From Prevotella sp. CAG:1058 (lineage in GTDB: Bacteria; Bacteroidota; Bacteroidia; Bacteroidales; Bacteroidaceae), in NCBI GenBank assembly GCA_000433175.1, contig HF986742.1, positions 1,279 to 21,519 of the forward strand: 20,241 nucleotides of DNA, read 5' to 3'. Numbering within the stretch: the stretch's first letter is position 1; each line of letters opens with the position of its first letter. A model generated the notes under the pieces. It did no database searches, was not told where the DNA came from, and was given only the letters and a program-made list of their open reading frames with translations. A program made the translations under genes and the position numbers. Positions 1 to 20,069 of the stretch are shown one piece after another.

Positions 1-46
1 CAGCACGCCGGCCTGACACATGTAAACCGGCAGCCGCGCCACGCTG

Positions 47-1021: not shown

Positions 1022-1059
1022 ACATCAGCCTGTAACTTATTGATAATCAGTATAATTAC

Positions 1060-1146
1060 AAAAGGATGCCTTTCGCATTGTAAAAGGCATCCTTTTGCGT
1101 TGCAATAGGTTACCTTTCATCGTCCCGAAAGCAACCTTTTGCAAAA
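1060..1146. repeat. AAAGG/CCTTT intergenic hairpin repeat, copy A
   Basis: The first hairpin is a perfect 14-bp inverted repeat (1060-1073 with 1083-1096, 9-nt loop), with arms AAAAGGATGCCTTT and AAAGGCATCCTTTT. A second, imperfect hairpin follows from GCAATAGGTT to AACCTTTTGC (about 1101-1143). The element lies between the convergent genes xerD and the phosphoethanolamine transferase. Copy C at 15760-15842 has the same block order and spacing but different core bases. Whether it acts as DNA or RNA is unknown; the first hairpin, with T or A runs on both sides, could also help stop transcription from the right. Confidence 0.75.
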
Positions 1147-5171: not shown

Positions 5172-5360
5172 TGAAAACTATTTGATAAAAAAAGGTTTTC
5201 TGCATATTTTTAACCTTTAAATCGTTAAAAAACATGTATTTTGACAAATTCGTATATGCCTACATGGCAAAACATCCGTAAATGACGGCAGACAGTCACA
5301 GCACGCCAGCCAAAACTACATCTGTAACAACATGATTACCAAGCAGTTTCCAATACATAA

Positions 5361-5423
5361 CCTTTTACGCTGCAAAAGGTGGCTTTTCAGGCTGTAAAAG
5401 GATACCTTTTGCAGCGTAAAAGG
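5361..5423. repeat. AAAGG/CCTTT intergenic hairpin repeat, copy B (nested form)
   Basis: A perfect 20-bp inverted repeat pairs 5361-5380 with 5404-5423 around a 23-nt centre. The left arm reads CCTTTTACGCTGCAAAAGGT. A smaller AAAAGG...CCTTTT hairpin nests across the inner arms and centre, and another AAAAGG-CGG-CCTCTT block follows to about 5432. It shares the building blocks of copies A and C but in a different order. It lies between divergent genes, well away from both promoters. Confidence 0.75.
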
Positions 5424-5520
5424 CGGCCTCTTGGAAAGCGGATGACGCAATACGCCTGTACGACTGCCGGCAAGGCCCAACGCAAGGGGAAAACGGCAAA
5501 AGGACAGGATTTAAACTAAA

Positions 5521-9578: not shown

Positions 9579-9600
9579 AAACAGTCCTACATACTATAAC

Positions 9601-9643
9601 AAAAACGTTCCCGCAAGCAAAACAGCCTGCGGGAACGTTTTTT
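9601..9643. terminator. Bidirectional terminator between the M16 gene and recG
   Basis: A perfect 15-bp inverted repeat, AAAAACGTTCCCGCA (9601-9615) with TGCGGGAACGTTTTT (9628-9642), has a 12-nt loop. The T run on the right serves the M16 transcript, and the A run on the left becomes a T run for recG read leftward. The two genes are convergent. Confidence 0.88.
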
Positions 9644-12574: not shown

Positions 12575-12621
12575 ATTTTCGTTTTGTTGGTTAATTTCAT
12601 TCCAGCTTGCTTATAGAACCG

Positions 12622-12663
12622 ACTGCGCCACGGGGCATGGATTCCATCCGTCCGTGGCGCAGT
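12622..12663. other. Long inverted repeat between the DJ-1-like gene and ispD
   Basis: ACTGCGCCACGG (12622-12633) pairs perfectly with CCGTGGCGCAGT (12652-12663). A smaller ATGG/CCAT stem can form in the loop. No T run follows on either strand. It could be an operon-internal processing or attenuation structure, or a factor-binding palindrome. Confidence 0.5.
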
Positions 12664-12735
12664 TGTCCTTATTGGCGTGGCGGCCTTATTGCCGGCCGTA
12701 CGCAGGTGTAGGTAATGCGTATGTCACACCGGTGT

Positions 12736-15181: not shown

Positions 15182-15733
15182 ATGTTCAAACAAACAAAAA
15201 CGATGAAATTTATGACAATCAAACGCATCTTCATGTCAGTGGCCCTTGCATTGGCCATGACCGTAGGAGCAGCGGCACAGGACGCCGACGCCCAATACGC
15301 CAAGAACCTGTTGCAACCCGGTACAACAGCCCCCGACTTCACCCTGGCCGCCCCTGACGGCACCAGCCACAGCCTGTCGTCGCTGCGCGGCAGCTACGTC
15401 GTGCTCGACTTCTGGGCATCATGGTGCCCGGATTGCCGCAAGGACACGCCCATGCTTAAGGAACTTTACGCCAAATACGGGCAGAACATCAAGTTTGTCA
15501 GCGTGTCGTTCGACGACGACAAAGCAAAATGGACCAACTACATCGAGGCCAACGGCATGGACTGGCTCAACCTAAGCGAACTGAAGAAGTGGAAACAGAC
15601 AGAGATATCGAAGCAGTACAACATACAGTGGATACCGGCAATGTACCTGATCGACCGCCAGGGGCAGATAATACTCTCGACGGTCATGATTGAAAAGCTC
15701 GCCGCCAAGCTGAAAGAGCTGCACGAACTTTAA
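15182..15733 (+). CDS. Periplasmic TlpA-like thiol-disulfide oxidoreductase
   Basis: The 183-residue secreted thioredoxin-fold protein has a hydrophobic signal segment at about residues 16-32 and an AAAQ cleavage region. Its AhpC/TSA-TlpA domain begins PGTTAPDFTLAAPDG, with the active site WCPDC (C82, C85) and the cis-proline loop WIPAMYLID. Such proteins reduce or exchange disulfides of exported proteins, for example in cytochrome maturation or redox repair; the partner here is unknown. An in-frame ATG at 15203 (MKFMTIKRIF) follows an A-rich tract typical of this phylum and may be the real start, which would shorten the N-terminal region. It lies after nadK on the same strand, and repeat copy C starts 27 bp past its stop. 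Confidence 0.88.
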   Translation: MFKQTKTMKFMTIKRIFMSVALALAMTVGAAAQDADAQYAKNLLQPGTTAPDFTLAAPDGTSHSLSSLRGSYVVLDFWASWCPDCRKDTPMLKELYAKYGQNIKFVSVSFDDDKAKWTNYIEANGMDWLNLSELKKWKQTEISKQYNIQWIPAMYLIDRQGQIILSTVMIEKLAAKLKELHEL

Positions 15734-15759
15734 GACAACACACAACCCGGCCATTTATG

Positions 15760-15842
15760 AAAGGCGGTCTTTTGCATTGCGAAAGGCCGCCTTTTAGCGT
15801 GCAATATGCCGCCTTTTACAAGCCAAAAGACGGCATATTGCA
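15760..15842. repeat. AAAGG/CCTTT intergenic hairpin repeat, copy C
   Basis: The first hairpin is AAAGGCGGTCTTT (15760-15772) with AAAGGCCGCCTTT (15782-15794), 13 bp including one G-T pair. The second is 15801-15817 with 15825-15841, 16 of 17 pairs, arms starting GCAATATGCCG and ending CGGCATATTGC. Block order and spacing match copy A almost base for base, while the cores differ. It lies between the tandem genes tlpA-like and M23 and may also work as a weak terminator for the former. Confidence 0.78.
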
Positions 15843-15945
15843 ACTCGTTGAATATCAACACATTAACAAAGCCGCCAGCAACGGCCGGTTTGTTAAAAGG
15901 TACATAAAGTTGTTAAAGTGTAAAACAACATTGAAATTTTTTTAT

Positions 15946-15953: not shown

Positions 15954-16054
15954 CAACGTTTTTATGAAAGACGGGAGTTTATCCTTCAGAAAACTTTCTA
16001 CTACTTCTCATGGCATTTGCCAGAGTTGATTTCTTAATCAAGAACAATTTAACT

Positions 16055-16999
16055 ATGCGCCTGAAAAGAACAATAAAGACATTAGCAATAACAGCATTCC
16101 TGGCCATGACGGCCGCAACGGCTTCAGCCCAGGACCTTTTGGCACGACAAGCACCAATAGACAAGAAAATGAAGGCAGTGGATACCCTTGCACTGCGCAA
16201 TTTGATAAACAAGGAACAGATGGGTTCACCCTCGGCCCAATTATACAAAGAGTGGAACAACAAGTACGCACACCGCGCAACGGAACTTCCCGACTCATTC
16301 CTCATCAACCTCAAACACTTCTGCATGCCTACCACAAGCAAGGTCATTACGTCCAACTTCGGACGCCGTTGGGGACGCATGCACAAGGGTATCGACGTTA
16401 AAGTATACATCGGCGACACCATACGCTCCGCATTCAGCGGCAAAGTGAGAATAGTCAAATACGAGGCCAACGGCTACGGCAACTACGTCGTGATACGCCA
16501 CTACAACGGCCTTGAGACCATATACGGCCACATGTCGAAACACCTGGTAAAGGAAAACCAGATTGTTAAGGCCGGCGAGCCTATCGGCCTCGGCGGCAAC
16601 ACAGGCCGAAGCACAGGTTCGCATCTGCATTTCGAGACACGCCTGTGCGGCGTAGCGCTCAACCCGGCACTGATGTTCGACTTCAGGAACCAGGACGTTA
16701 CCGGCGACACATACATGTTCCACCGCGACACTTACGAGAACGAGTCTGTTCTCGCCAACAAGGCAAGGGGCAAGTCTGCCGGCGACGACGAGGCTGTTGC
16801 CGAGGAGACAAGTTCAAGCAAGTCGCGCAAGCAGTCTTCAGCGTCAAGCTCAGACATACGCTACCACAAGGTTAAGCGCGGCGAGACGCTCAGCTCGATT
16901 GCCAAGAAGCGCGGAACTACCATCGACAAGCTGTGCAAGCTTAACCACATAAGCAAGCGCATGCGCATACGTCCGGGACAGATATTAAGATACTCATAA
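16055..16999 (+). CDS. Secreted M23 family peptidase with C-terminal LysM domain
   Basis: The product is a murein endopeptidase or a murein-hydrolase activator. From the ATG at 16055 it has 314 residues and opens with a clean signal peptide (MRLKRTIKTLAITAFL, cleavage after ATASA). The ATG at 16010 would add 15 residues before the signal and is less likely. The M23 domain spans about residues 95-205. It contains H110 and D114 in HKGIDV, H159 in YGHM, and H190/H192 in SHLHFE, which is the complete zinc and catalytic set, so it should be an active enzyme and not a degenerate EnvC/NlpD-type activator. A serine/lysine-rich linker (about 238-267) leads to one LysM (about 270-313, YHKVKRGETLSSIAKKRG...RPGQILRYS) for peptidoglycan binding. 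It has its own promoter box and a strong terminator. Confidence 0.93.
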   Translation: MRLKRTIKTLAITAFLAMTAATASAQDLLARQAPIDKKMKAVDTLALRNLINKEQMGSPSAQLYKEWNNKYAHRATELPDSFLINLKHFCMPTTSKVITSNFGRRWGRMHKGIDVKVYIGDTIRSAFSGKVRIVKYEANGYGNYVVIRHYNGLETIYGHMSKHLVKENQIVKAGEPIGLGGNTGRSTGSHLHFETRLCGVALNPALMFDFRNQDVTGDTYMFHRDTYENESVLANKARGKSAGDDEAVAEETSSSKSRKQSSASSSDIRYHKVKRGETLSSIAKKRGTTIDKLCKLNHISKRMRIRPGQILRYS

Positions 17000-20018: not shown

Positions 20019-20069
20019 ATGACAAAGGTCACCGTGAGGTTCCCTTTTGATTCGCAAAAGGTTTTTTAG
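20019..20069 (+). CDS. Possible 16-residue leader peptide
   Basis: ATG at 20019 to TAG at 20067-20069, encoding MTKVTVRFPFDSQKVF. The ORF covers the whole first terminator hairpin (20043-20061), and its stop codon begins at the last T of the T run. No homology is known to me. A reading frame of this size can occur by chance; only the exact overlap with the terminator makes it notable. Confidence 0.3.
   Translation: MTKVTVRFPFDSQKVF
20043..20067 (+). terminator. First terminator of the right-end RNA
   Basis: CCTTTTG (20043-20049), loop ATTCG, CAAAAGG (20055-20061), followed by six T. The 7-bp stem is rather weak in GC, which would suit a conditional terminator. Confidence 0.6.

Follow-up and report, generated by a model that had tools for sequence, protein, structure and literature searches.

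A scattered intergenic element was found to recur about every 10 kb in a group of Prevotella-like gut bacteria, with letters that change while pairing and spacing are kept, a combination that suggests either a role in chromosome arrangement or a mobile element whose spacing is built in. It was followed up from a window of 20,241 nucleotides from Prevotella sp. CAG:1058 (contig HF986742.1), the whole stretch of DNA analysed, in which a sequence-only reading had described an intergenic hairpin repeat with arms that changed together and had proposed either selection for a two-hairpin structure or a mobile palindromic element. The pattern is real, and is larger than that reading described. The interpretation that fits it best, held tentatively, is a phased element of DNA architecture.

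The hairpin repeat was recovered on checking the window sequence, between a thioredoxin-like gene (15182..15733, + strand; Pfam), the stop codon of which lies 26 nt before it, and a downstream M23 peptidase/LysM gene (16010..16999, + strand; Pfam). This copy, C (15760..15838, with no strand assigned, as for all of the elements, hairpins and end palindromes given here), consists of four AAAGGnnnCCTTT-like boxes starting at 15760, 15782, 15804 and 15826, i.e. 13-nt boxes and 9-nt spacers at a pitch of exactly 22 nt. Its predicted fold pairs units 1 and 2, with cores CGG/CCG, in hairpin I (15758..15796) and units 3 and 4, with TGCAATATGCCG/CGGCATATTGCA, in hairpin II (15800..15842), the latter with an additional weak 3-bp extension. 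Copy C scores 103.4 with the position-weight model and 84.4 bits with the covariance model, being itself among the 71 elements from which both were built. Copy A (1061..1139; units at 1061, 1083, 1105 and 1127; position-weight score 82.8), between convergent genes, is predicted to form two hairpins like those of copy C, and the core differences described between the two copies hold: A has ATG/CAT and AGGTT/AACCT where C has CGG/CCG and TGCCG/CGGCA. Copy B (5353..5431; units at 5353, 5375, 5397 and 5419; position-weight score 94.8), between divergent genes, folds in the other register with units 2 and 3 at its centre, so that the two-hairpin form is a strong tendency and no law. The repeat unit is thus finer than in the sequence-only reading, with four 13-nt boxes at an exact 22-nt pitch. 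For all three copies the fold z-scores are −6.5 to −8.7 on both strands, and none of 200 shuffled sequences folded as well. The window also holds a single short hairpin at 20043–20062 (CCTTTTGATTCGCAAAAGG followed by TTTTTT), which is probably a terminator and was not called as an element, and two further strong intergenic hairpins that lack the 22-nt plan (9597–9642, which ends in a T-run, and 12621–12666).

Relatives were found through the NAD kinase of the window, the nearest being Prevotella MAGs (L001–L009; 75–83% identity) and Marseilla massiliensis (L010; 76%). Allowing up to three mismatches, a two-unit pattern gave 41 matches in the window and 80 loci, against one in the same DNA reversed; with up to two mismatches it gave 77–492 matches per strand in nine of ten related genomes and none in the tenth, whereas the backwards pattern matched in G005 only (two per strand) and in none of the other nine. 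Applied to 934.5 kb of contiguous, unselected sequence from three genomes (G001, G300 and G004), a position-weight matrix trained partly on elements from these genomes returned 83 elements and none in the reversed sequence; loci L014–L080 (1.205 Mb) returned two. Chance or base composition, for which no supporting point was found, is already refuted by these reversed-sequence controls and retains a negligible probability. If the densities of G001, G004 and G300 hold throughout, the copy number is approximately 230–260 per genome. At a box cut-off of 7/10, four units were counted in 72 of 139 elements, two or three in 63 and five or six in four, and some of the shorter elements carry degenerate boxes further out. 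Carriers are few in wider samples, and the family is therefore local: with up to one mismatch, the two-unit pattern is present in eight of 301 genomes of the family of G009 and in eight of 60 of its genus, and the covariance model found the element in three of 149 genomes of its order, with 31 candidates per genome scored. Two genomes, G066 and G102, have ten matches each (up to one mismatch), and the seven inspected in each proved to be near-identical copies of a longer relative; in loci L228–L241 this repeat spans perhaps 280 bp, with about five boxes at a 22-nt pitch and an ATTGAT-containing end in most copies, and is larger than the elements of the window.

The claim that the two arms change together is borne out statistically across copies. 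In 71 four-unit elements, aligned without gaps, picked by their boxes and not by their cores, and including a few near-copies so that not all are independent, 83.3% of the cells in hairpins I and II pair (77.2% when shuffled), 228 changes are two-sided (124.3 when shuffled) and the covariation is 0.294 (0.189 when shuffled). None of 500 shuffles reached any of these values or that of a fourth measure, further pair types; a fifth, the number of pairs with a two-sided change, was weaker (35 of 500 shuffles). The equally spaced control helix of units 2 and 3 lay below the shuffled mean on every measure. Shuffling units within genomes, for 59 elements, tested the three-letter cores, which contain no box letters, and gave exact core complementarity of 0.458 for units 1 and 2 (0.200 expected) and 0.475 for units 3 and 4 (0.171 expected), against 0.068 for units 2 and 3 (0.145 expected); units 2 and 4 showed a small excess in one measure, the core fraction (2 of 1000 shuffles). 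Pairing is less strongly in excess among the 83 unselected elements (0.540, compared with 0.474 and 0.479), though still present: it was reached by none of 1000 shuffles for units 1 and 2 and by one of 1000 for units 3 and 4; here units 2 and 3 are not clean (z 1.8; 34 of 1000 shuffles). An orthologous site in front of the M23 gene also shows paired change: there, hairpin II is almost identical in letters between the window and G001, while hairpin I reads CGG/CCG in the window and TAG/CTA in G001, a difference of two base pairs and four substitutions, all of them paired. The covariation in units 1 and 2 and in units 3 and 4 thus gives evidence for the conserved two-hairpin structure, one of the two explanations offered at the outset. 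In this element family, compensatory changes of DNA hairpins are recorded naturally, with units 2 and 3 as a built-in control.

Placement was assessed with gene calls from a simple codon-usage caller for 100 elements in stretches of five genomes. As had been claimed, the elements are intergenic: 98 of the 100 lie outside called genes, although 77% of the DNA was called coding. Fifteen lie at the ends of stretches and 83 could be classed by gap type, 45 as tandem, 25 as divergent and 13 as convergent (gap lengths predict 49.5, 18.2 and 15.3); among unselected elements, the 80 that could be classed comprised 39 tandem, 23 divergent, 16 convergent and two inside genes. Over all classed contexts the median distance is 80 nt to stop codons (n = 71) and 249 nt to start codons (n = 95). 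A polarity of the chromosome was considered and rejected, since the 83 unselected elements were oriented 19 one way and 18 the other, with 46 left without a call.

The elements also avoid one another, a spacing rule that is new here and was absent from the sequence-only reading. In the unselected 934.5 kb, the 77 distances between neighbours have a minimum of 3783 bp, a median of 8487 bp and quartiles of 6354 and 11153 bp. None is below 3.7 kb, where six intergenic null models, which place at most one element per intergenic gap, predict 13.4–19.2, and in 2000 simulations of each null there were never fewer than five. The coefficient of variation, 0.72, falls within the simulated range because G300 has long gaps; the abnormality lies in the missing short distances. 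In stretches partly picked for containing matches, neighbours come as close as 2.1 kb, and no two lie within 2 kb of each other. In G300, 11 of 14 distances are 3.8–8.0 kb and the remaining three are 31, 38 and 53 kb; contig 2 of this genome has four element-free stretches of 31–53 kb (1–53369, 105820–136947, 136947–189833 and 201399–239666), so the elements are not needed everywhere. Eighteen proteins scanned from these gaps included products of glycan-uptake, fimbrillin, methylase, BspA-type and PDDEXK genes together with ordinary ones such as a U32 peptidase, and we presume that accessory DNA makes up most of these stretches. The density of elements might therefore distinguish core from recently acquired DNA.

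Some sites are old, as indicated by the recurrence of the element at the M23 gene and at PCMD across species. Seven of 13 carriers by box scan, and eight of 13 with the covariance model, have an element in the 900 nt upstream of the M23 gene. For PCMD, 13 genomes were searched, two gave no match and one weak match was left out; an element lies within 900 nt upstream at five of the ten loci read, and a sixth at 941 nt. Combined, the two upstream sites are occupied in 12 of 23 cases (p = 5e-6 against a baseline of 12.6%), the baselines being 12.6% upstream and 10.8% downstream of 668 genes of G001, G300 and G004 with the position-weight caller. Downstream of the Xer-like gene, an element was found in three of 13 genomes, or in four of 13 with the covariance model plus one weak match; conservation of this site on its own is not significant (3/13, p 0.16). 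The cores are species-specific, with vocabularies overlapping by 0.00–0.46 between genomes and by 0.51–0.69 between split halves of a single genome; base composition may explain part of this.

Copying to new places occurs occasionally. Near-identical copies with different flanks were found in G300 (L142, 10171 and 18885), G004 (L151, 3628 and 9678) and G009 (L126, 6440 and 9278), and this recent movement lends evidence to the other explanation first offered, a mobile palindromic element. The tract copied in the G300 pair ends close to the units, beyond which the flanks differ, and that of the G004 pair takes in the end palindrome; by eye, neither pair has an obvious target duplication at its copy boundaries. 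No parent element for a MITE was seen in the sampled DNA. A composite transposon between the twin copies of G009 was rejected, as the DNA between them holds, by eye, lipoprotein-like reading frames and no transposase.

All three window copies are adjoined by an end palindrome, identified from the sequence and the flank listing: TTGAATATCAA (15848..15858) on the M23-gene side of copy C, TTGATAATCAG (1040..1050) at copy A and the weaker ATGATTACCAA (5332..5342) at copy B. Across the family, a looser palindrome, TTGATNATCAA or a relative, adjoins some elements, centred at a distance of 15–16, 27 or 38 nt, which are increments of 11. The exact form occurs 15 times in approximately 980 kb of carrier stretches, eight of them near an element, and once in the 1.205 Mb of L014–L080. 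As a one-sided mark, the palindrome orients 46 of the 71 aligned elements by a loose rule; with up to two mismatches of TTGATNATCAA on one side it orients just 24 of the 83 unselected elements. The palindrome resembles the IHF consensus, WATCAANNNNTTR; exact matches to it occur in 6.6% of 166 flank windows and in 0.5% of 2297 other intergenic windows, a 12.7-fold difference.

Arrays with a comparable pitch were sought in intergenic DNA as self-similarity at each lag between 12 and 44. In the 67 NADK-linked Prevotellaceae loci that lack the AAAGG pattern (L014–L080), lag 22 accounted for 29 arrays and lag 21 for 19, and no other lag below 42 exceeded six, with lags 42 and 44 as echoes of 21 and 22. 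The arrays at lags 22 and 21 fold better than shuffled sequence (mean z −2.4 and −2.0, against −0.3 for the others), and about 30% reach z < −3. They consist of lineage-specific, often palindromic units at a 21- or 22-nt pitch (e.g. L015 19561, L017 2769, L059 6075 and L074 12824), some with other boxes, such as AAAAC/GTTTT in L015. In 20 stretches from the genus of G009, many of them short and with poor gene calling, the signal is weak (four and three arrays at lags 22 and 21, five at lag 14); 20 Bacteroidales stretches gave one and none, and 50 kb of E. coli none and one. The signal being unclear in the genus and order stretches, its generality is a lead and not a result.

Several known systems resemble the element in part. 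The BIME-1 and BIME-2 of enterobacteria share with it alternating inverted palindromic units, and a minority of the element's flank windows resemble the IHF consensus; the element, which presumably differs from BIMEs in sequence, usually has four units and has species-specific cores. In the available part of the source, BIME-1 interacts with IHF and BIME-2 binds gyrase (PMC2817692). The BrickBuilt MITE of Porphyromonas gingivalis is likewise intergenic, belongs to Bacteroidales and has internal repeats of similar length (23 nt), but is described, in the passages available, as carrying 1–22.8 direct repeats with leader and tail segments in 19 copies (PMC4596501), whereas the present element usually has four alternating units and is far more numerous. 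Palindromic candidate structured RNAs have been listed in Bacteroidetes from an HMP2 set, 230 of 250 being predicted terminators according to the excerpts (PMC8040213); they are set apart from the element by description only. Patterns with an 11-bp period are the topic of PMC1242344, as far as the accessible text goes. The titles, abstracts and passages of open-licence papers contained no recognisable account of the element family.

A further likeness is to REPINs, i.e. GTAG-tagged REP sequences with a RAYT, which are also numerous short intergenic palindromes with paired inverted units, fixed distances and compensatory changes; the latter two are described as common in the accessible passages of PMC3116915 (also PMC3733652). 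The element differs in having boxes at a 22-nt pitch and a minimum spacing of about 3.8 kb in unselected segments. By column counts and flank listing, the 71-element alignment has no GTAG/CGTC tag column and ends in AAAGG/CCTTT. A Y1 transposase (PF01797) is present in five of 11 strong carriers and was not found in six, the carriers being mostly MAGs and so possibly incomplete; G003 has one weak partial match to a RAYT-like protein. No element lies near the Y1 genes at the five carrier loci read, approximately 3.3 kb each; of further Y1 matches in carriers, two lie outside this reading. A classic REP/RAYT system was therefore rejected, and the element is not filed as a REP or REPIN, because it failed both of the defining tests applied, the tag and the cognate RAYT. 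A RAYT-like Y1 gene occupies one conserved locus in three genomes (L157 1240–1420 in G007, L158 1240–1420 in G006 and L159 1955–2160 in G008), flanked by its own GTAG-tagged inverted repeat pair, TTGTAGGGACATAATTCATTATGTCC, and looks like a classic REPIN beside the element family. A Bacteroidetes subclass of Y1 transposases is bordered by atypical secondary structures that recur at other places in the genome, as far as the available text tells (PMC6006769), and these structures may be distantly linked to the element.

An RNA target should tolerate G·U over A·C on the transcribed strand; with the sense taken from flanking tandem genes, G·U and A·C mismatches numbered 23 and 29 in tandem gene contexts and 21 and 23 in the unselected set (bootstrap −17..13). 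Since G·U is not favoured over A·C, a sense-strand RNA was rejected, and the pairing, by this indirect test, is probably kept at the DNA level. Most matches score nearly equally on both strands with the 71-element covariance model. A further pointer to DNA processing comes from the near-identical G009 copies, 2838 bp apart, which carry the hairpin I loop in opposite orientations. Oriented by the end palindrome, GT and AC number 32 and 14 in hairpin 1+2 and 24 and 36 in hairpin 3+4, and thus favour no consistent strand; the unoriented tally of 133 GT and 210 AC in the unselected set mixes registers. With the best register taken for each unselected element of G001, G300 and G004, A·C exceeds G·T on the contig strand (difference −23, 95% −45..−2), a small excess that is unexplained. 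A transcribed RNA element, whether a 3′ UTR stabiliser, a bidirectional terminator or a small RNA, could account for the very stable folds of the window copies and for elements being nearer to stop than to start codons, but is highly improbable given the sense-strand mismatches, the 25 of 83 classed elements in divergent gaps where 18.2 are expected by length, the lack of a terminator-like match in copy C by U-tract scan and the lack of any Rfam family at or above the gathering score in the window; below that score, copy B has a match (E 0.09) to an unrelated viral microRNA family. The scan of copy C and the undepleted divergent gaps led to the rejection of an intrinsic terminator.

The main rival, and a real possibility, is a REPIN- or MITE-like non-autonomous mobile element with target immunity. 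Transposition would include a single-stranded or end-pairing step that requires the hairpins, which would make the arms covary; a putative transposase would avoid sites near existing copies, giving the minimum spacing; and the intergenic placement would reflect the purging of insertions in genes. The near-identical pairs in different flanks of G300, G004 and G009 agree with this, as do the 14 of 20 matches in G066 and G102 that were read as near-identical copies of the longer relative and the compensatory changes and fixed distances shared by REPINs in what is available of PMC3116915. It is less easily reconciled with the Y1 transposases not found in six of 11 strong carriers, mostly MAGs, with the five Y1 loci without an element and the RAYT-like gene of G006–G008 that has another repeat, or with sites that persist across species with their boxes intact; moreover, no two elements were seen less than 2.1 kb apart, and hence no pair of IS length. 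The arms could instead have been matched by template-switch correction of quasi-palindromes or by gene conversion between elements, the structure itself being unselected. Processing of inverted repeats would produce the inverted hairpin I loop of G009, two vocabularies of cores resemble each other more within a genome than between genomes, and the copied tract of G300 stops near the units, leaving different flanks; but units 2 and 3, equally close and matched in their boxes, show no correction, and the 22-nt pitch and the long-range spacing are left unexplained, which makes this account improbable.

The phased DNA-architecture element, which falls somewhat short of probable, draws on the covariation, the lack of a G·U excess, the strand-symmetric model scores, the minimum spacing, the M23 and PCMD sites, the surplus in divergent gaps (25 against 18.2) and the 21/22-nt arrays elsewhere; against it, the spacing could equally stem from the target immunity of a mobile element, orientation lacks polarity, the pairing signal is weaker in the unselected elements, one of five covariation measures is weaker, G300 has long element-free stretches, the Xer site on its own is not significant, and base composition may partly underlie the lineage-specific cores. 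As 22 bp corresponds to two helical turns, four boxes on a strict 22-bp pitch would all face one side of the duplex and might form a platform for an oligomerising DNA-binding protein; no protein that binds the element was identified in this analysis. Units 1 and 2 and units 3 and 4, being mostly inverted repeats, could also extrude as a cruciform that takes up negative supercoiling. The element may therefore act as DNA, as a protein platform and/or as a supercoiling-absorbing cruciform, marking off stretches of chromosome typically of 6–11 kb, and keeping to at most one per several kilobases may be what the chromosome needs. If phase and pairing matter more than the exact letters, the cores would be free to drift as species-specific vocabularies. 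A broader version, unlikely as it stands, would see in the Prevotella group a chromosome lattice of phased 22-bp palindromic arrays, about one per 4–12 kb with an exclusion zone of a few kilobases, serving as structural nodes recognised through DNA shape, phase and pairing instead of sequence, in lineage dialects such as AAAGG/CCTTT here and AAAAC/GTTTT or others elsewhere. If the spacing rule reflects transposition immunity, these bacteria would harbour a mobile element that controls its own spacing and has no known transposase; if it reflects function, this gut lineage would possess spaced-out chromosome nodes that are flexible in sequence and dependent on pairing.
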